Assembly (NCBI RefSeq): GCF_000482705.1
Contig: NZ_AXWO01000001.1
Coordinates: 248,001 to 312,000 of the forward strand
Length of the DNA: 64,000 nt
Source: Glycomyces arizonensis DSM 44726
Lineage (GTDB): Bacteria; Actinomycetota; Actinomycetes; Mycobacteriales; Micromonosporaceae
Direction: 5' to 3'
Below, one piece after another: positions 12,049 through 21,428 of this stretch. The position numbers and the translations under genes were made by a program. Within the stretch, counting starts at the first letter, position 1; each line of letters starts with the position of its first letter. The notes beneath the pieces were generated by a model that was given only the letters and a program-made list of their open reading frames with translations, was not told the origin of the DNA and ran no database searches.

Positions 12049-12854
12049 CGTTCCTCCCCAGTGGCGACCTCGCGGCCGCGCGAGACCCAGTCGCTCCATG
12101 AGCCGATGTACACCGGCGGCGTCGGCAGTCCCGCGGCCGTGAACGCCAGCGCGGCACGGGCCGCACCGACCCCCGAGCCGCAGTAGAACGCCGCCTCGCG
12201 GTGGTCTTCGTACCGCCCCCGGAGCGCCTCGGCGTCGGCCAGGCCGCCCTCGGGGGCGTTGTCGCCGCTCAGCGGCAGATTGATCGCCCCGGGTATGTGC
12301 CCGGCGACGGGATCAACCGGTTCATTGTCGCCTCTGTAGCGCTCCGCGGCTCGCACATCGACCAGTTCGTGCCGCTCGGCCCAGGCCGCGGCCCCTTCGG
12401 CGTCGAGGACGGGCAGGGCGCCGGGGCGGACGGCGATGTCGCCGCGCTCGGGCTCGGGGTCGGTGTAGACCAGCGGGTAGTCGGCCGCGATCCAGGCGTC
12501 GATGCCGCCGTCGAGGACGTGGACGTCCTCGTGCCCGGCCCACCGCAGCGTCCACCAGGTGCGGGCGGCGGCCATGCCGTCGCCGTCGTCGTAGACCACG
12601 ACGGTGGAGTCCTCGTTCACGCCCGCCGCGCGCAGCACCTCCTGGAGCGAGTCGGGGTCGGGCAGCGGATGGCGCCCGCCGTTCTCGCCGACGGGCCCGC
12701 AGATGTCGCGGTCGAAGTCGATCCAGACGGCGTAGGGCAGGTGGCCTTCGCGGTAGTCCGGCTCCCTGGTCGGACCCCCGAGCGTCCAGCGGACGTCGAG
12801 CACGACCGGTTCGGCGAGTCCGGCGACCTCGTCGGCGGCGATGAGTGGCCTCAT
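12045..12854 (-). CDS. sseA: Two-domain rhodanese, 3-mercaptopyruvate or thiosulfate sulfurtransferase
   Basis: 269-residue tandem rhodanese that transfers sulfane sulfur to thiols. The first domain is inactive-like (VVLDVRW, DGDGMAAARTWW, with Asp in place of the catalytic Cys). The second has the active loop YCGSGVGA with the catalytic Cys near residue 232. The GSGVGA loop resembles mercaptopyruvate sulfurtransferases more than the CRKGVT loop of thiosulfate enzymes. It sits 10 bases after the deaminase and overlaps the lipoprotein gene. Substrate preference is an inference from the loop. Confidence 0.85.
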   Translation of the reverse strand: MRPLIAADEVAGLAEPVVLDVRWTLGGPTREPDYREGHLPYAVWIDFDRDICGPVGENGGRHPLPDPDSLQEVLRAAGVNEDSTVVVYDDGDGMAAARTWWTLRWAGHEDVHVLDGGIDAWIAADYPLVYTDPEPERGDIAVRPGALPVLDAEGAAAWAERHELVDVRAAERYRGDNEPVDPVAGHIPGAINLPLSGDNAPEGGLADAEALRGRYEDHREAAFYCGSGVGAARAALAFTAAGLPTPPVYIGSWSDWVSRGREVATGEER

Positions 12855-12864
12855 GGCTCCCAGG

Positions 12865-13305
12865 CTATCGGAGATGCGCGTTGGGCCGTGCGGCCGCCGC
12901 GGCGAACGCCGGCATGGCCTCCACCTCGACGCCCGCCTCCCGCAGGACGGCGATGCCGCTGGGGGCCTGGACGAAGTGCTCGGGCTCGGCGATGGCGTAG
13001 ACGACGCGGGCGACCTCCGCGTCGGCGAGCAGCCGCGCGCACGGCGCGGGCCGGGAGGCCCGCTGCCCGCACGGCTCCATGGTCGAGTAGACGACGGCGC
13101 CCGCGACGGAGCCTTCGGCGTGTCGCAGGGCGACCTCTTCGGCGTGGTCGTGCGGCTGCTCGGCGCGTGAATAGCCTTCGCCGACGGCCCGGCCGTCGAG
13201 GACGATCACCGCGCCGACGCTGAACGCGGTCGGCGAGGGCTCGCACCGCTCGGCGAGGGCGACGGCGCGGGCCATCCAGCGGGCGTCTGCTTCGGATTGC
13301 GGCAC
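12865..13305 (-). CDS. Cytidine-deaminase-superfamily zinc deaminase, RibD-like
   Basis: 146-residue stand-alone deaminase. The zinc site is complete: HAEEVAL near residue 50 supplies His and the catalytic Glu, and the later EPCGQRASRPAPC supplies two Cys. The spacing and the AIAEPEHFV stretch resemble the pyrimidine deaminase half of RibD, but no reductase domain follows and no riboflavin gene is near. A role on a modified pyrimidine or nucleotide is possible. The GTG start was chosen because upstream sequence is not conserved-looking; it heads the three-gene operon and diverges from glnX. Confidence 0.8.
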   Translation of the reverse strand: MPQSEADARWMARAVALAERCEPSPTAFSVGAVIVLDGRAVGEGYSRAEQPHDHAEEVALRHAEGSVAGAVVYSTMEPCGQRASRPAPCARLLADAEVARVVYAIAEPEHFVQAPSGIAVLREAGVEVEAMPAFAAAAARPNAHLR

Positions 13306-13434
13306 CGCGCCAACATACCGCGCCCGGCGCACCGAATGACGGCCGTCACGCCGCGTTGCCGCGTGCCGATACCATGAGGACGACCCCCGAACGCTGCGCT
13401 CTCGGCGACGCCCGCGCAGTCGCGAATCTGAGAG

Positions 13435-14823
13435 GTGAAGTTGACCGTCCAGTCTCCTCCCGCCCCGCCTCAAGCGCAGGTGCAAGGCGGACCGGCCGCG
13501 CCGGTGCCCGGCCCCGCGGGCGCCGCCGAGAGCGGGCGGCAGCGGTTCTCGCGCCTCTCCTCGTCGCTGCGCCACACGCCCGGGCAGCTGCGCGGCATCC
13601 TCGCGGTCCTGGTCGTCCTGACGCTCGGCGCGGGCGTCACCGCCGCGACCTCGATCCTCGGCAAGTCGGCCGTCATCGAGGACACCACGAGCCAGTCGGG
13701 CCGCCTGTCGGTGGCCGCGCTGGAGCTGTACCAGGCGCTGTCGCAGGCGGACGCGAGCGCCGCGAGCTCCTACCTGACGGCCGGGGCGGCCTCCGAGGAG
13801 GTCCACGACTCCTACCGGGAGGCGCTGCGCGACGCGACGGTCGCGCTCACCACGGCCGCCCGAGAGGTCGAGACCCACGCCGACGCCCAGCTGGTGGCCG
13901 AGCTGAACGCGCACCTGCCGGTCTACACGGGCCTGGTGGAGTCGGCCAGGACGTTCAACCGGCTCGGCGAGCCGGTCGGCGCCACCTACCAGCGCCAGGC
14001 CTCCACGCTCATGCGCAGCGAGATGCTCCCCGACGCGAACACGCTCCAGCACAACGCGATCGACCAGCTCAACGAGGCCAGGGACGAGGCGTCGGCATTC
14101 CCGTGGGTGGCCACGGCGCTCGCCGCGGCGGCGCTCGGCGTCCTGGTGTGGGCGCAGCTGTGGCTCACCCGCAGGACCAACCGCGTGTTCAACCTCGGGC
14201 TGGTCGGCGCGACGGTGGCGATGATCGGCATGACGGGCTGGCTGGTGCTGGTGGCGCTGGCCTCGGCGAGCCACACCGAGCGGTCCCATGAGGAGGGATC
14301 CGATCCCCTGGAGCTGCTCGCCGAGGCGCACATCACCGCCCAGCAGGCGCGCGCCGAGGAGTCGCTGCTGCTCATCGCCCGCGGCGAGGACGAGAAGGCC
14401 GACGAGCGCTACACGGACCAGATGGCGCTGCTGGTGGGCGAGGGCGGGCTGCTCGCGCAGTTGAGCGAGGCCTACGGCGACGACCCCGACCTGTCGGGGC
14501 CGCTGGCCGCGGCCGAGGAGTCGGCCGGGGCCTGGAGCGCCGGGCACGACGAGGTCATCAAGCTCGCCAAGGCCGGGTCCTACGCCGAGGCCGTGGAGCT
14601 GGCCGTCGGCGACTCGGACGAGAGCCTGGCGACCTCGTTCGACGCGCTCGACGAGCAGCTCACCGAGGCGACCGCCATCAGCGCCGAGCGGTTCGTCGAC
14701 GCGACCGGCGACGCCGAGCGCTCCCTGTCGGGCGCGGCGGCCGGCCTCGCGGCGCTGAGCCTGCTGGCCCTGGTGAGCGCGGCGATCGGCATCCAGATGC
14801 GAGTGGCGGAGTATCACGCATGA
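13435..14823 (+). CDS. glnX: GlnX-like transmembrane sensor component
   Basis: 462-residue membrane protein. Pro/Ala-rich cytoplasmic start (residues 1-50), four membrane helices (about 56-78, 222-242, 252-276 and 435-457), and two extracytoplasmic helical domains between helices 1-2 and 3-4. It heads the glnX-glnH-pknG operon known from mycobacteria and corynebacteria, where GlnX is thought to link extracellular GlnH to cytoplasmic PknG. The gene starts at GTG 13435 or TTG 13441; AGAGG is better spaced for the latter. It overlaps glnH by four bases, showing coupling. Confidence 0.88.
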   Translation: MKLTVQSPPAPPQAQVQGGPAAPVPGPAGAAESGRQRFSRLSSSLRHTPGQLRGILAVLVVLTLGAGVTAATSILGKSAVIEDTTSQSGRLSVAALELYQALSQADASAASSYLTAGAASEEVHDSYREALRDATVALTTAAREVETHADAQLVAELNAHLPVYTGLVESARTFNRLGEPVGATYQRQASTLMRSEMLPDANTLQHNAIDQLNEARDEASAFPWVATALAAAALGVLVWAQLWLTRRTNRVFNLGLVGATVAMIGMTGWLVLVALASASHTERSHEEGSDPLELLAEAHITAQQARAEESLLLIARGEDEKADERYTDQMALLVGEGGLLAQLSEAYGDDPDLSGPLAAAEESAGAWSAGHDEVIKLAKAGSYAEAVELAVGDSDESLATSFDALDEQLTEATAISAERFVDATGDAERSLSGAAAGLAALSLLALVSAAIGIQMRVAEYHA

Positions 14824-15806
14824 TTCTGCACAGGTCAACGGTTCCCCAGTCGAGCGCGAAGCGGCGGCCGCGATGGGCGGCCGCGCTGGGCGCCTGCCTC
14901 GTCGCGGCGGCCTGCTCGGGCCCGGTCTCGATCGAGCCGCCCGAGGTGGACGTGCCGACGCCGCTGCCCGAGGGCATCGACTTCGACCCCGAGATCGAGA
15001 CCGGCACGGCCGACGACAGCTGCGAACCGGTCGCCTCCTACTCCCCCGGCTCGGTCACCGCCGAGCAGGCGCGGGCGACCCTGGGCGACCAGGACCTCGT
15101 CGTCATCGGCATCAGCCAGTCGACGAACCTCATGGGCTACCGGGACCCCGTCACCGGCGACCTGGCCGGATTCGACATCGACATCGCCAAGGCCATCGTC
15201 TCCCACCTCATGGGCGATGAGACGAAGGTCAAGTGGGTGCCGATGACCTCCGGCGACCGCGAGGAGGCCGTGAACTCCGGGACGGTCGACATGGTGGTGC
15301 GCACCATGACCATGACGTGCAAGCGCTGGAACAGCGTGGAGTTCTCCAGCGAGTACTACCACGGCGGCCAGCGCCTGCTCGTCCCCACCGGCTCGGGCAT
15401 CGGGGGGCTGGGCGACCTGACCGCCGACCACCAGGTGTGCACCGGCAAGGGCTCGACGTCCCCGAGGAACATCGCCGAGCAGTCCGAGGCCCAGCCGGTG
15501 ACCGTCCCGGACTTCAACGACTGCCTGGTGCTGCTCCAGCAGGGCACGGTCGACGCGATCACCACCGACGACTGCATCCTGGCGGGCATGGCCATCCAGG
15601 ACCCGACGCTCGAGGTCGTCGGGGAGGCGTTCTCGCAGGAGCCCTACGGCATCGCCTTCGCCAAGGGCAACACCGACCTGGCCCGCTACGTCAACGGCGT
15701 CCTGGAGACCATGCGCGAGGACGGCACCTGGCAGGACATCTACGACAAGTGGCTCGCCGAGCACCTCGGCGCCGCCACCGCCCCGGACCCCGTCTACCAG
15801 GATTGA
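14820..15806 (+). CDS. glnH: GlnH-like amino-acid-binding lipoprotein
   Basis: 328-residue extracytoplasmic solute-binding protein of family 3. The N-terminus carries a lipoprotein signal with the acylated Cys at 32 (or 26). The binding core has the usual order: LMGYRDPVTGDLAGFDIDIA, a VDMVVRTMTMT strand, and GIAFAKGNTDLARYVN. In mycobacteria GlnH binds Asp, Glu and Asn and reports to PknG through GlnX. No permease or ATPase lies next to it, which favours a sensing over a transport role. Its ATG overlaps the glnX stop codon. Confidence 0.9.
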   Translation: MILHRSTVPQSSAKRRPRWAAALGACLVAAACSGPVSIEPPEVDVPTPLPEGIDFDPEIETGTADDSCEPVASYSPGSVTAEQARATLGDQDLVVIGISQSTNLMGYRDPVTGDLAGFDIDIAKAIVSHLMGDETKVKWVPMTSGDREEAVNSGTVDMVVRTMTMTCKRWNSVEFSSEYYHGGQRLLVPTGSGIGGLGDLTADHQVCTGKGSTSPRNIAEQSEAQPVTVPDFNDCLVLLQQGTVDAITTDDCILAGMAIQDPTLEVVGEAFSQEPYGIAFAKGNTDLARYVNGVLETMREDGTWQDIYDKWLAEHLGAATAPDPVYQD

Positions 15807-15817
15807 AGGTCAGCGCG

Positions 15818-18172
15818 ATGAGCGACGAGCGGCCCGAACACACCCAGCGCTACACCCCGAGCGTCCGGCAGGTCCAGCAGAGCGACGCCGAGAACGAGTC
15901 CGATTCGGACACGCTGCGGGTGCGCAAGCGCCTGAGCACGCCCCCGGCCGTGCCCGCCGCGCCCGGCTTCGCCCCGCAGCAGACGTCCGGAGCGCCGATC
16001 TCCGCCCAGCCGGTCTCGCACGTCGTCTCCCCCGCGCAGGCCCCGCCGTCGCCGCCCCCCGCGCCCTACCGGGCTCCCGCCGCGCCGCTGCCGCAGCCGA
16101 TCACCGGCCCGGTCACCCGCTCGGCGACGGCCACCTCCCGCCAGCGGGGCGGTCTGTCCGACATGCCGCCGGTCCCGCCGAGGGACCCGGCCGAGGCGGT
16201 CCTGGCCGATCCGAAGGTCCCCGAGTCGAAGCGCTTCTGCGGCTCGTGCGGGAAGCCGGTCGGGCGCCCGCAGGCGGGCCGCGGCGGCCGCGTCGAGGGC
16301 TACTGCCCGTACTGCCGGTCCCGGTACTGGTTCACGCCCTCGCTGGAGCCCGGCGACCTCCTCTCCGAGCGCTACGAGATCCTCGGCGCGATCGCCCACG
16401 GCGGCCTGGGCTGGATCTACCTGGCCAACGACAAGAACTTCGCCGACGACCTCACCCAGCGGTGGGTCGTCATCAAGGGCCTCATCAACACCACCGACGA
16501 GGACGCCATCGAGTCGGCCATCAACGAGCGCCGCTTCCTGGTCGGCATCGACCACCCGAACGTGGTCGACATCCACGACTTCGTCGCCGCCCCCGACCCG
16601 CGCTCGGGCCAGCTCCAGTCGTACATCGTCATGGAGTACGTCGCCGGCAAGTCGCTGCGCGACATCCGCGACGCGGTCGGCGAGGACGGCGACCGCAGCC
16701 CCCTGGCGCTGGAGCAGGTCCTCACCTACACCTCCGAGCTGCTCCCGGCGTTCTCCTACCTGCACGACCGCGGCCTGCTGTTCTGCGACTTCAAACCCGA
16801 CAACGTCATCCACGTCGAGACCTGGCTCAAGCTCATCGACCTGGGCGCGGTGCGCCGCGTCGACGACGAGGAGTCGGCGATCTACGGCACGCCCGGCTAC
16901 TCGGTGCCCAACGACGAGATCCTCTCGGTGGGCCCGTCGGTCACCTCCGACCTGTACACCATCGGCCGGTCCATGGCCGTGCTCGCCCTGCGGTTCAAGG
17001 GCTTCACCGGCGAGTTCCGCGACTCGTTCCCGCCCGCCGCCGAGACGCCCGTATTCCAGGAGTTCGGCTCCTTCCACCGGCTGCTGCTGCGCTCGTGCCA
17101 CGCCGACCCGCGCTCGCGCTTCCAGGACGCCGACGAGATGCGCACGCAGGTCAAGGGCGTCCTGCACGAGGTCCAGTCGATCAAGCGCGGCGAGCCGAGG
17201 TTCGAGCCGTCGACGCTGTTCAGCCCCGAGCAGTCGGTGTTCGGCGAACCGGACGTCGAGTACGACGTCGCGGCGATCGGCGACCCGTTCGACGTCGCCC
17301 ACGCCCTGCCGACCACCATGGTCGACCTGGCCGACCCGGGCGCCTCGTTCCTGGCGAGCCTGACCGCCACCGACGCGGGCGGCATCCTCGCCGAGCTCGC
17401 CACCGCGCCCGTCCAGAGCCCCGAGGTGCAGCTGCGGCGCGTGCGCACGCTCGTGAACGCCGGCGAGCTGCACGTGGCGAACGCCACGCTCGACCACTTC
17501 GCCGCCCAGGAGGGCAACACCTGGCAGGTGACGTGGATGCGGGGCATCATCTCGCTGCTGGCCGCCGACTTCCCCGCCGCCGCCGCCCACTTCGACGCCG
17601 TCTACTCGCACCTGCCCGGCGAGCTCGCGCCGCGCCTGGCGCTGGCCGCCTGCGCCGAACTGGCCGGGCGCCGCGACCTGGCGCTGCCGCACTACACGCG
17701 CATCTGGGCGTGCGACCACCGCTTCGTCTCGGCCGCGTACGGCCGGGCGCGCCTGCTCGACCTCGAAGGCCAGTCCACCGAGGCGATCACCACACTCCAC
17801 CAGGTGCCGAAGACCTCCTCCCAGTACGGGATCGCGCAGACCGCGGCCATCCAGACGTCCCTGCACAGCCGCACCGCGCCGCCCTCGCTGATGGACCTGC
17901 ACCACATGGCCGGGCGCCTCGACGAGCTCAAGCTCGAACCCAGGAGGCGCCACCTGGTCTCGACGAGGATCCTGCACGCGGCGATCGACCTGGTCGCCCG
18001 CACCGGCCCGGCCGCCGAGCCGCCGATCTTCGGCGCCGCGCCCGAAGAGCGCGAACTGCGTCTGGCGCTGGAGGCGGCCTACCGTAGGCTCGCCCACACC
18101 TGCACCGGCCGCGAGGACCAGGTCTACTACTTCGACCAGGCCAACCGCCACCGCCCCCGCACGATGCTGTAG
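15818..18172 (+). CDS. pknG: Ser/Thr protein kinase PknG
   Basis: 784-residue soluble kinase with the full PknG layout. Residues 1-135 form a disordered Pro/Ala-rich tail with Thr sites. A rubredoxin-like metal site follows (Cys141, Cys144, Cys163 and Cys166 in two CxxC knuckles). The kinase domain spans about 190-445, with catalytic Asp324 in CDFKPDNVI and a DLGAVRR loop in place of DFG. The C-terminal region from about 500 is a helical TPR domain. PknG controls glutamate and TCA-cycle flux by phosphorylating a small FHA protein (GarA or OdhI). It lies 11 bases after glnH and 14 before a PP2C phosphatase. Confidence 0.96.
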   Translation: MSDERPEHTQRYTPSVRQVQQSDAENESDSDTLRVRKRLSTPPAVPAAPGFAPQQTSGAPISAQPVSHVVSPAQAPPSPPPAPYRAPAAPLPQPITGPVTRSATATSRQRGGLSDMPPVPPRDPAEAVLADPKVPESKRFCGSCGKPVGRPQAGRGGRVEGYCPYCRSRYWFTPSLEPGDLLSERYEILGAIAHGGLGWIYLANDKNFADDLTQRWVVIKGLINTTDEDAIESAINERRFLVGIDHPNVVDIHDFVAAPDPRSGQLQSYIVMEYVAGKSLRDIRDAVGEDGDRSPLALEQVLTYTSELLPAFSYLHDRGLLFCDFKPDNVIHVETWLKLIDLGAVRRVDDEESAIYGTPGYSVPNDEILSVGPSVTSDLYTIGRSMAVLALRFKGFTGEFRDSFPPAAETPVFQEFGSFHRLLLRSCHADPRSRFQDADEMRTQVKGVLHEVQSIKRGEPRFEPSTLFSPEQSVFGEPDVEYDVAAIGDPFDVAHALPTTMVDLADPGASFLASLTATDAGGILAELATAPVQSPEVQLRRVRTLVNAGELHVANATLDHFAAQEGNTWQVTWMRGIISLLAADFPAAAAHFDAVYSHLPGELAPRLALAACAELAGRRDLALPHYTRIWACDHRFVSAAYGRARLLDLEGQSTEAITTLHQVPKTSSQYGIAQTAAIQTSLHSRTAPPSLMDLHHMAGRLDELKLEPRRRHLVSTRILHAAIDLVARTGPAAEPPIFGAAPEERELRLALEAAYRRLAHTCTGREDQVYYFDQANRHRPRTML

Positions 18173-18186
18173 CGAAGGAGCACCGA

Positions 18187-19254
18187 ATGCCGTCCTCACC
18201 GACAGCCACGCAAGGCCCCGCGAAGCACTGCCCCTCCTGCGGCCTGGACGCCGACGTCGGACGCTACTGCGAGGCGTGCGGCGGCGACCTGGTCGAGCAC
18301 GAGCGCCCCGCCGAGACGGCCGCGTGGCTCTCCTCGGCCGCCACCGAGGACAACCCGGAGCACCCCGGCGGCTCGGACGACCACACCTCGTTCTCCCTGC
18401 CGGGGATCGGCGCGGCGACCGACGTGGGCAAGCGCCACCACTACAACCAGGACTCCCTGGCGATCAGCCTCGCCGACGACGGCCGCAAGATCGCGGTCGT
18501 GTGCGACGGCGTCTCGGGCGCGTCCGACTCCGAGCGGGCCTCGCTGGCCGGGGTTGAAGCGGCCGTCACTGAGATCCGCGCCGCACTCGGCGAGGGGCTC
18601 AGCGCCGAGGACGCCTCGCGGCGCGGCGTGAGCGCGGCCCACTCGGCGGTGGCCGCGGTCGGCAAGCAGTACCCGAACTCGCCGCCGTCCTCGACGTACG
18701 TCTCCGCGGTGGTGGAGGGAAACCAGGCCGTCCTGTGCTGGGTGGGCGATTCGCGCGCCTACTGGGCCGGGGAGAAGGAGGCCAGGTGCCTCACCGTCGA
18801 TGACACGATTCACGCCCGGCTCGAATACCAGGGCGTGGACCCCTCGGACGACCGGTACAAGAACCCGTACTCGAAGGCGCTGCTGGCCTGGCTGGGGGCC
18901 GACGCGCCGACCCTGAACCCGAACCTCCTCCGAGTGGACCTCGGCGGCGGACATGTCGTAGTGTGCAGTGACGGTCTGTCACGCTATTTCGACGAGGACG
19001 CCGATCTGCTGCCCTTGCCGGACGGCGGTGTTGGCGACAAGGCTGTAGCGTTGACACGACAAGCGCTCGCGCACGGCGGGCACGACAACATCAGTGTCGC
19101 GGTGGTGGAACTCGAATCCCCCGGTTCGGTCCAGGTCGACGAGCATGCGCAGGAACATGCCGATCCGGATCCCGAGCAGGGTGATTCCACATCGCTGCTC
19201 GGTGTCGCCAGTGAGGCCGAGTACACGGAACTGCTTGGAGGGGGACGACCTTGA
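18187..19254 (+). CDS. PP2C-family Ser/Thr phosphatase with N-terminal zinc ribbon
   Basis: 355-residue metal-dependent phosphatase. Residues 13-33 contain a double CxxC zinc ribbon (CPSC and CEAC). The catalytic domain spans about 75-310, with [24 protein letters not shown] supplying a metal-binding Asp, CSDGLSRYF and HGGHDNISV near its end. It is the natural counterpart to PknG: the RBS AAGGAG is six bases after the kinase stop codon, and its stop codon overlaps the next start. Its zinc ribbon resembles those in PknG and the FHA protein, suggesting shared partners. Substrates are inferred. Confidence 0.93.
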
Positions 19255-20489
19255 CCTACCAGCCGACCTACCCCGGCGGCGGTGCCCCACAGCCGGGCGG
19301 ATACCAGTGTGCCTGCGGGGCGTTCCCCCAGGCCCAGTTCTGCGAGCAGTGCGGTACGCCGAACCCGGCGTGGCAGCAAGGCCAACCCCCGCAGTCGCCG
19401 GCCGCGTTCGGGCAGGGCTACCCGCCGAACGACCCGTACGCCCAGCCGCAGCAGCAGGACCCCTACGGCCAGCAGCAGCCCGGTTACGGCCAGCAGGATC
19501 CGTACGGGCAGCCGCAGCAGCAGCAGGACCCCTACGGCCAGCAGCCCGGCTACGGTCAACAGGACCCCTACGGCCAACCGCAGCAGCAGGGGTACGGCCA
19601 GCAGGATCCGTACGGTCAGCCCCAGCAGCAGGACCCGTACGGCCAGCAGCCGGGATACGGTCAGCAGGACCCCTACGGCCAGCCGCAGCAGCAGGACCCG
19701 TACGGGCAGCCGCCGCAGCAACAGGACCCCTACGGCCAGCAGCCGGGATACGGGCAGCAAGACCCCTACGGCCAGCCCCAGCAGCAGGACCCGTACGGAC
19801 AGCAGCCCGGCTACGGTCAGCAGGATCCCTACGGCCAACCGCAGCAGCAAGACCCCTACGGGCAGCCGCAGCAGGACCCGTACGCGCAGCAGTACGGCGC
19901 CCCGGCCTCGGCTCCGCCCGCGCCCACGTCGGCGCCTCCCGGGCCGCCTCCGGGCGTCCCGGCCGCGCCGTTCGGCGCCCCGACCTCCGCTCCCCCGTCC
20001 GCGTCGCCGACCAGCGGGTTCAGCGTCCCCGACTCGCAGCCGCACGACCTGGCGTCGAACTACGCGCCGCCCGGCCAGGCCACGGCGACGCGCTGGATCG
20101 TGGCCGTGACGGCCGACCAGGGCTACTTCAACAAGGTGGCCGCCTCGGACGGGGCCTCGCAGCTGCAGTACCCGTCGTTCGCCAAGCCGCGGCGCTTCCC
20201 GCTGGACAAGGGCGAGCTGACGATCGGCCGCTACAGCGCCAAGCGCGGCGTCACGCCGGACATCGACCTGTCCGGCGACGTGGCCGACCCCGGTGTGAGC
20301 GCGCAGCACGCGAAGCTGTTCGCCAAGCCGGACGGCTCCTGGACGATCATGGACGTGGGCTCCTCGAACGGGACGTTCCTCAACGGCTCGGACGAGCCGC
20401 TGGCGCCGAACGTGGAGATCGTGATCGGCGACGGCTCCTACCTCAACATCGGGGCCTGGACGCGCCTGACGATCCACTACGAGGGCTAG
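19251..20489 (+). CDS. FHA-domain protein with N-terminal zinc ribbon and long DPYGQ repeat region
   Basis: 412-residue protein that should bind phosphothreonine peptides. Residues 1-40 hold a zinc ribbon (CACG and CEQCG). Residues about 61-213 are an uninterrupted run of QQDPYGQPQ and QQPGYGQ units, then a Pro/Ala linker. The FHA domain spans about 323-405, with [18 protein letters not shown] and SSNGTFLNG, the phosphate-binding residues. The TTG start overlaps the phosphatase stop codon (TTGA) and has GGAGGGGG upstream. As the FHA protein of the pknG operon it is a candidate PknG partner, but it lacks the N-terminal ETT phosphorylation motif of GarA. Confidence 0.88.
19431..19890 (+). repeat. 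In-frame DPYGQ tandem repeat tract
   Basis: About 460 bases of degenerate repeats encoding alternating DPYGQPQQQ and PGYGQQ units inside the FHA gene. The composition is Gln, Gly, Tyr, Pro and Asp only. Codons vary between copies (GAC/GAT, TAC throughout, GGC/GGG/GGT/GGA), so the protein pattern is held while the DNA drifts, which argues for selection on the peptide. Confidence 0.9.
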
Positions 20490-20497
20490 CAGACCGC

Positions 20498-20531
20498 AAA
20501 CGGGGGCCGGACGCGAGTCCGGCCCCCGTTT
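20498..20531. terminator. Bidirectional terminator after the FHA gene
   Basis: Perfect 15-bp stem, AAACGGGGGCCGGAC / GTCCGGCCCCCGTTT, loop GCGA, between converging genes. It starts with AAA and ends with TTT, so it can stop transcription from both sides and closes the glnX-to-FHA operon. Confidence 0.9.
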
Positions 20532-20534
20532 CGT

Positions 20535-21428
20535 CTACCTGCCGGTGATGAACGCGGTGACGCGCCGGTTGACCTCGGGGCTGACCAGGACCTTGCGGTG
20601 CCCGAGCCCGCTGGTGCCCACCAGCTCGGCGTTCGGCCAGGCGGCGGCCAGCTCCTCGGCGTGGCGGAACGGGTTGGGCCGGTCGCCCTTGTCGTGGACG
20701 ATGAGCGCGGGGGCCTCCACGGGCGGGTCCAGGAGGGTGATCTTCGAGAGCTCGACGTCGGCGCGCTGCTCGGCCATCGGGATGAGGCGCCCGATGATGC
20801 GCGGGCCGACCGGGACGATGGCGCCGAGGGTGTCGTTGAAGCCGCTGGTGCCGCCGATGAACGGGGCGATCATGGCCAGGCGGGTGCCGACCGGGTCGAA
20901 CCCGGCCTCGCGCATGGCGAGCACCGAGGTCAGGCAGCCCATGGAGTGCGCCACGACCGCGTGCGGCGCGCCGAACTTGTCCAGTGCGGCGCTCATGGCG
21001 CCGACCAGATGCGGGCCGTTGGAGTAGTCCGGCCCCCACGGGCCCGGGCCGGAGTTGCCGTGGCTGGGGGCGTCGAAGGCCACCACGCGCATGCCGTTCG
21101 CCACCAGGCTCGCGCCGATGAAGTCGAGGTCGCCGGTGCATCCGCCCCAGCCGTGGACGAGGTAGACCAGGGGTCCCTCGCCCCAGTCGTAGCCCCACAC
21201 TTCGCTGCCGAGGCAGTCGAGGGTGAAGACCTCGGCTCCGGCGGGGGCCTTGCCCCGCAGGCGCTTCTCGGGGCCGCCGGGGACCTTGAACCACAGCTTG
21301 CTCAGGACCTTGGCCGCCGGGCCGGGCGCGAAGCGCTCGGCGGCGGCGAAGGCGGCACGCACATGCCAAGGGGCACGAACGGTCGTGCTTTTCTTTGCGG
21401 GGGCGGCGGCCCCTTGCTGCTGCGCCAT
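20535..21428 (-). CDS. Alpha/beta-hydrolase
   Basis: 297-residue hydrolase. The oxyanion motif HGWGG lies near residue 92, the nucleophile elbow AHSMGC near 162 and the catalytic His in GLGHRKVL near 276, with an acidic residue near 247 (HDKGDRP). The fold fits carboxylesterases or thioesterases of the YheT/lysophospholipase type; the substrate cannot be told. It lies 16 bases after the TetR gene on the same strand, an arrangement in which the regulator usually controls the enzyme. A TetR-operator-like sequence is found within its first 25 codons. Confidence 0.87.
   Translation of the reverse strand: MAQQQGAAAPAKKSTTVRAPWHVRAAFAAAERFAPGPAAKVLSKLWFKVPGGPEKRLRGKAPAGAEVFTLDCLGSEVWGYDWGEGPLVYLVHGWGGCTGDLDFIGASLVANGMRVVAFDAPSHGNSGPGPWGPDYSNGPHLVGAMSAALDKFGAPHAVVAHSMGCLTSVLAMREAGFDPVGTRLAMIAPFIGGTSGFNDTLGAIVPVGPRIIGRLIPMAEQRADVELSKITLLDPPVEAPALIVHDKGDRPNPFRHAEELAAAWPNAELVGTSGLGHRKVLVSPEVNRRVTAFITGR

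Follow-up and report, generated by a model that had tools for sequence, protein, structure and literature searches.

A PknG operon with a phosphatase and an FHA protein

A gene set joining the Ser/Thr kinase PknG to a PP2C-family phosphatase and a zinc-ribbon FHA protein was examined in the soil actinobacterium Glycomyces arizonensis DSM 44726 (assembly GCF_000482705.1). It lies in a window of 64,000 nucleotides (nt), the whole stretch of DNA analyzed here (contig NZ_AXWO01000001.1, positions 248,001 to 312,000). Five plus-strand genes fill window positions 13435-20489 and encode, in order, GlnX, GlnH, PknG, the PP2C phosphatase, and the FHA protein (Table 1). GlnX and GlnH overlap by 4 nt, spacings of 11 and 14 nt separate GlnH from PknG and PknG from PP2C, and PP2C and FHA again overlap by 4 nt. 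Coordinates and family searches agree with a sequence-only reading of the window that had described five genes spaced by 14 nt or less. The gene set is real and well conserved; it lacks VWA but otherwise corresponds to an extension of the known GlnX-GlnH-PknG pathway that is widespread.

Table 1. Genes, protein motifs, and RNA features of the operon, in window coordinates
Feature	Position	Strand	Basis
GlnX, membrane signal-transduction protein (predicted GTG start)	13435..14823	+	Open reading frame; NF058618 transduce_GlnX
GlnH, substrate-binding protein, likely for acidic amino acids	14820..15806	+	SBP_bac_3; PDB matches
PknG kinase (long low-complexity N-terminus, rubredoxin, kinase, TPR)	15818..18172	+	PF16919, PF00069, PF16918; PDB 2pzi
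Thr/Ser-rich segment of PknG (T100, T104, T106), just before the GGL motif	16115..16138	+	Glycomyces alignment
Rubredoxin-type four-Cys site of PknG (C141, C144, C163, C166)	16238..16315	+	PF16919, 84.1 bits
PP2C-family Ser/Thr phosphatase	18187..19254	+	PP2C_2 over cut-off; active-site Asp columns
Zinc-ribbon-like CxxC-x9-CxxC, PP2C residues 15-31	18229..18279	+	Sequence
Zinc-ribbon FHA protein (TTG start)	19251..20489	+	FHA domain match; start context in relatives
Zinc-ribbon-like CxC-x8-CxxC, FHA protein residues 20-34	19308..19352	+	Sequence
Tandem repeat coding most of the Q/P/G/Y-rich linker (DPYGQ/GYGQ units)	19431..19874	+	TRF
FHA domain with phosphothreonine-pocket Arg, Ser, Asn	20220..20453	+	PF00498
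Strong hairpin after the FHA stop codon, no T-run	20498..20531	+	Fold -39.3 kcal/mol, z -6.2

The two sensor proteins were recognized by family models and structural matches. GlnX exceeds the cut-off of NF058618 (391.1 bits versus 250), falls short of the narrower equivalog NF041460 (214.8 versus 780), and gives weak CHASE3/4HB_MCP matches under cut-off. GlnH matches SBP_bac_3 above cut-off (9e-31, 106.8 bits), with the solved GlnH chains 6h2t and 6h1u as its top PDB matches. Alignment to these matches shows four of seven ligand residues retained (R147, T162, R169, and D250) and three changed (K161R, S164T, and W232F), the residue roles being those given in sections of PMC6069109. GlnH and GlnX are described as feeding PknG in parts of the same paper and of PMC9769921.

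PknG exceeds the cut-offs of its rubredoxin, kinase, and TPR models, finds PknG itself (2pzi, E=3e-131) as its best PDB match, and is 93% identical to PknG of G. tenuis. The active-site Lys, Asp, Asn, and DFG-Asp are all present. Across 156 aligned rows, the corresponding columns hold Lys in 151, the catalytic Asp in 156, Asn in 152, and the DFG-Asp in 154, and the four rubredoxin columns hold Cys in 153, 145, 153, and 148. The Thr/Ser-rich segment is retained across the Glycomyces alignment, where 18 of 22 rows have the full N-terminus and four are short. This segment is a candidate docking/autophosphorylation site, proposed by analogy with a portion of PMC8546545 in which N-terminal phosphothreonines of PknG recruit an FHA substrate.

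The phosphatase surpasses the PP2C_2 cut-off (3.6e-14, 53.2 bits), not that of the Stp1-type model NF033484 (96.6 bits versus 230), and carries all five active-site Asp residues, each column being Asp in 79 of 79 rows. The FHA protein exceeds the PF00498 cut-off at 48.2 bits and contains the Arg, Ser, and Asn that we take to be the pocket residues; in module FHA domains, these are conserved in 84, 87, and 87 of 87, respectively. With the active-site and pocket residues kept and the arrangement conserved in the genus, the proposal that sensor, kinase, phosphatase, and phosphothreonine reader form one tight gene set is borne out. The TTG start of the FHA gene sits within the 3′ end of PP2C. This TTG and a preceding G-rich, ribosome-site-like stretch recur in all 18 loci examined among the 21 other Glycomyces-type ones (L019, L020, and L026 are outside the 18), so neither the overlap nor the start is a product of chance.

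Distribution and history of the gene set

In all 21 other Glycomyces-type loci (20 from named Glycomyces and L020 from a metagenome-assembled genome), PP2C directly follows PknG, and at least the start of the FHA gene directly follows PP2C. Five of these loci are cut by contig ends (L019, L020, L026, L031, and L033). No VWA match was found in any of the 21. Separately, the FHA frame of two Glycomyces genomes (L021 and L029) is lost inside the linker, through a true frameshift or an assembly error in the repeat.

The sequence-only reading had proposed a survey of pknG neighborhoods for the PP2C-FHA extension. Scoring of six roles with purpose-built profiles covered 130 PknG places in 97 genomes of the same class, the window genome being excluded. 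GlnX, GlnH, PknG, PP2C, VWA, and FHA are clustered at 53 places and PknG-PP2C-VWA-FHA at 55, with PP2C present at 69. A further 31 places hold GlnX-GlnH-PknG only and 18 hold PknG alone, some of the latter being distant kinases and some short rows being contig ends. One contig-end row, L145, appears to be completed by L255, a PP2C-VWA-FHA set located at a contig end elsewhere in that genome.

Families are referred to by labels to which we attach presumed identities, from gene content for f2 (Mycobacterium group) and f4 (Streptomyces-like) and from named tree neighbors for f54 (Streptosporangiaceae-like) and f55 (Frankiaceae). The 28 places in f2 comprise 25 with GlnX-GlnH-PknG only, two with PknG alone, and one six-gene cluster. 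PP2C, VWA, and FHA are present at 24 of 34 places in f4, 11 of 18 in f54, 6 of 6 in f63, and 10 of 39 in f55, a family with many short contigs in which 12 of the 39 places show PknG alone. Outside f2, PP2C lies beside PknG in 66 of the other 73 PknG genomes, and FHA occupies the same cluster in 60. The PP2C-FHA extension was thus correctly recognized in the window but is not special to it: an extension unique to this genome is ruled out by the Glycomyces loci together with the class-wide survey, where it is widespread and usually comes with a VWA gene that the window operon lacks. Relative to the six-gene clusters, the window has homologous PP2C and FHA genes in the same relative order with the same ribbons and residues; the differences are the missing VWA gene and the direct overlap of PP2C and FHA.

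In the GTDB family of G. arizonensis (61 genomes), PknG was matched in 31 genomes and VWA in 27. VWA lies ≤2 kb downstream of PknG on the same strand at 32 of 34 places, and 24 of these 32 pairs leave a gap of 0.9-2 kb, which by length only would fit a PP2C. Irregular arrangements were also seen. The six-gene set of G244 (L251) is broken over several frames and gives no PknG_TPR match at threshold, reflecting decay or poor assembly; five f4 genomes (L242-L246) have an extra distant kinase beside a VWA gene with no PP2C or FHA in the cluster; and the f2 genome G373 has three PknG copies, two in GlnX-GlnH-PknG sets (L163 and L141) and one in a six-gene cluster (L191).

Co-inheritance was assessed with a profile of 32 module FHA domains (match threshold E 1e-25), which found matches in 77 of the 296 class genomes. 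PknG and the FHA subfamily occur together in 71 genomes, PknG only in 27, FHA only in six, and neither in 192; without f2, the counts are 70, four, six, and 192. The subfamily is therefore found outside f2 in 70 of 74 PknG genomes versus 6 of 198 without PknG, in a test that treats relatives as independent and whose p-values are far too small. Twelve further FHA places were chosen by hand (the six FHA-only genomes, five second places in f55, and G376), and PP2C adjoins FHA in 11 of them, the twelfth being a 5.4-kb contig.

PknG trees were constructed from 159 rows (two short rows dropped) and, by a slower method, from 45 rows picked by hand from these. Both are midpoint-rooted only, with L191 and the f2 rows forming long branches in the larger. 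In both trees, the three-gene f2 rows constitute one group (100/100 in the 45-row tree), the six-gene L191 is its sister (100/99), and the other branches around them mostly carry PP2C. The gene-set label needs five changes on the 45-row tree, and its three-gene rows include the contig-end L145 and the incomplete L038. Because the three-gene operons of f2 nest among six-gene ones, the branching order suggests that the textbook three-gene operon is probably a reduction, arising through loss in the Mycobacterium group.

A second cluster is encoded on contig 7 of the window genome (L015:7458-15212), consisting of PknG2, VWA, FHA2, GlnX2, and GlnH2, followed by an MFS transporter. It shares PknG, FHA, GlnX, and GlnH homologues with the operon and differs in having VWA, in having no PP2C, and in belonging to another branch of the PknG tree. 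PknG2 is 38% identical to the operon PknG and clusters with f54 and Nonomuraea rows (100/100, 45-row tree), so the phylogeny assigns the two clusters different histories. The notion that they are complementary halves, one supplying PP2C and the other VWA, is only weakened, since the congener G396 yields a single PknG match and, at the thresholds used, none for VWA.

The operon FHA protein, GarA, and zinc ribbons

The characterized GlnX-GlnH-PknG operons of Mycobacterium and Corynebacterium have the same sensor, transducer, and rubredoxin-plus-TPR kinase, with GarA/OdhI encoded elsewhere. GarA is likewise separate in G. arizonensis, adjoining gcvH. What the window adds is a PP2C and a distinct zinc-ribbon FHA protein, where the relevant passages of published accounts speak only of three genes. 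On the OdhI/GarA model NF041660 (cut-off 200 bits), the gcvH-linked protein scores 199.3 bits, 0.7 under the cut-off, and it reads DVTATM where others have ETTS. The operon FHA protein reaches only 23.6 bits on this model, and its gene is flanked by PP2C and an alpha/beta hydrolase gene, not by gcvH. A relocated GarA is excluded by the model score together with the separate gcvH-linked protein; by its sequence, the operon FHA protein is an additional reader.

The sequence-only reading had held that a separate GarA phosphorylated by PknG, with no interaction of the operon FHA protein, would count against it. The first part of this, a separate GarA, is indeed present in the window genome, and GarA matches occur in 98 of 98 PknG genomes. 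With the window genome counted, the 296 genomes of the class gave GarA matches in 286 and PknG matches in 98. The GarA search was by similarity alone; a handful of the lower-scoring hits among the 286 could represent other FHA proteins. Two genomes of the same GTDB family (G186 and G287) have a GarA match and no PknG_TPR match at threshold.

A small zinc knuckle at or near the N-terminus had also been noted in the last three proteins, as a possible common element for docking or redox sensing. The ribbons of PP2C and FHA do lie near the N-termini and are conserved: among module frames, 91 of 95 for PP2C and 80 of 88 for FHA have a CxxC..CxxC pattern, as against none of the 76 for VWA, and a few matches are in read-through portions. 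The PknG motif, by contrast, spans residues 141-166 and is the known rubredoxin domain PF16919. Neither the PP2C nor the FHA ribbon scores above cut-off with any Pfam zinc family. An N-terminal ribbon preceding the ETTS-type motif was found in GarA as well, at 16 of 20 hand-chosen loci (L259-L278); GarA lacks it in three f2 loci, one f1 locus, and the window genome. This rules out a knuckle exclusive to PknG, PP2C, and FHA, and a ribbon followed by an FHA domain is, as judged from these sequences, a common protein layout. In the operon protein, the two are joined by a 243-residue linker rich in Gln, Pro, Gly, and Tyr and with zero Lys or Arg. Such linkers are long in f4 (median 225 residues) and almost absent in f54 and f55 (medians 4 and 0).

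Another locus of the window genome, on contig 5, resembles the operon in having a PP2C, two FHA proteins, and a kinase nearby. It contains genes we presume to be those of PstP, PknB, FhaA, and FhaB. Unlike the operon, it also includes cell-wall genes (FTSW_RODA and a transpeptidase/penicillin-binding protein), and its PP2C is 29% identical to that of the operon. PstP has been called the sole annotated Ser/Thr phosphatase in many Actinobacteria (PMC6554272, in part).

The operon is bordered 5′ by a divergent deaminase gene and 3′ by the hydrolase gene, which is convergent. The hairpin after the FHA stop codon is likely a transcription terminator between the convergent genes; a terminator scan that requires a T-run did not call it. 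A promoter scan of positions 12800-20700, a weak test in this bacterial group, returned 0 sites on the plus strand and one on the minus strand.

A putative phosphothreonine circuit and its alternatives

We favor, with about even confidence for and against, a PknG nutrient-sensing operon with its own phosphatase and phosphothreonine reader, in which the FHA protein would dock on autophosphorylated PknG and PP2C would reset the complex. The scheme builds on observed homology, residues, gene order, and co-inheritance, from which we infer all of its interactions. By homology to the three-gene form studied by others, GlnH would bind extracellular acidic amino acids and GlnX would relay the signal to the TPR domain of PknG. 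PknG would then autophosphorylate Thr residues in its flexible N-terminus, as shown by others in relatives, and the operon FHA protein could bind these phosphothreonines to give a kinase-reader assembly, probably competing with GarA, or positioning it, at the same docking sites. PP2C would strip the N-terminal phosphates, and output to central metabolism would still pass through the separate GarA. PknG is the likelier PP2C target because the buried phosphothreonine of GarA resists phosphatase, according to one part of PMC6554272.

Several points weigh against this proposal. Four PknG genomes outside f2 have no module FHA, PknG of f2 works with neither PP2C nor FHA beside it, and FHA-PP2C places in f55 also occur away from any PknG_TPR match, so per-genome co-occurrence overstates the linkage in that family. 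The ATP-site Lys is missing from some f55 kinases. Outside Glycomyces, the Thr/Ser segment is only loosely similar; a regular expression matched 37 of 64 scorable sequences, and some matches fell plainly elsewhere. Conservation of the FHA pocket, a feature of most FHA domains, does not identify the binding partner. Nor does the scheme assign a role to the VWA protein that many relatives have. Finally, PP2C could act on GarA, since recombinant PstP dephosphorylates GarA in vitro (a further part of PMC6554272) and Ppp reactivates OdhI (as stated in part of PMC9769921).

Alternatively, the operon FHA protein could be a second PknG effector, parallel to GarA, that is phosphorylated by PknG and then switches another enzyme. 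Its clustering and co-inheritance with PknG and the ribbon-plus-FHA layout that it shares with 16 of 20 GarA proteins are in keeping with this role, which we nevertheless consider unlikely. A GarA-type Thr motif of the ETTS kind between the ribbon and the FHA core was matched in 11 of 80 ribbon-bearing members; in 9 of those 11 the match is the FHA domain's own WTATI strand, and none of the 11 is the window protein. The linker length, moreover, ranges from 0 to 418 residues among ribbon-bearing members.

PP2C, VWA, and FHA might instead be a separate assembly that borrows PknG, comparable to the kinase-PP2C-vWA sets by GTPase conflict systems, with an output other than the tricarboxylic acid cycle. 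Such sets were noted beside actinobacterial GAP1-N2 GTPase systems in a section of PMC7159879, so a kinase-PP2C-vWA set is not new in itself, and the likeness to the window drawn from that section is a zinc-site kinase linked to PP2C. The window differs in lacking VWA and in having GlnX, GlnH, and the TPR domain of PknG, which point to amino-acid sensing (the comparison concerns these genes, not the GTPase). PP2C-FHA places exist without a PknG_TPR match and kinase-VWA pairs without PP2C, as expected of an independent assembly; yet 70 of 76 non-f2 genomes with the module FHA also have PknG, and GlnX and GlnH are both clustered in 53 of the 55 PknG-PP2C-VWA-FHA loci, and we likewise consider this account unlikely. 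Still more improbable, by a wide step, is a PP2C that serves as a plain eraser for PknG and GarA with the FHA protein as a passenger or with an unrelated partner: kinase and PP2C genes adjoin in other bacteria too (PMC1262709, in part) and PP2C accompanies PknG more often than FHA does (66 versus 60 of 73), whereas FHA and PP2C stay together in 11 of the 12 further places and overlap by 4 nt in the window, with an FHA start shared by all 18 relatives examined.

Beyond the favored circuit, a broader and more speculative picture can be drawn, to which we attach rather more doubt than belief. The textbook pathway may be the stripped remnant of a six-gene phosphothreonine circuit that had an eraser, a VWA scaffold, and an FHA reader of its own; this reader would compete with GarA for the phosphorylated PknG N-terminus. 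The complex would be gathered, or tuned by redox, through zinc sites that the kinase, phosphatase, reader, and ancestral GarA carry, and Glycomyces would illustrate that the circuit can drop VWA and keep the rest.

The PknG literature found deals mainly with Mycobacterium and Corynebacterium. Searches of the open-licence literature gave no description of PknG with PP2C, VWA, and FHA, nor of a kinase-PP2C-vWA set tied to PknG, GlnX, and GlnH, which does not imply absence from print. If many other actinobacteria pair PknG with a PP2C and an FHA protein of its own, the switching-off of PknG and the sharing of its docking sites become directly testable in harmless soil bacteria.

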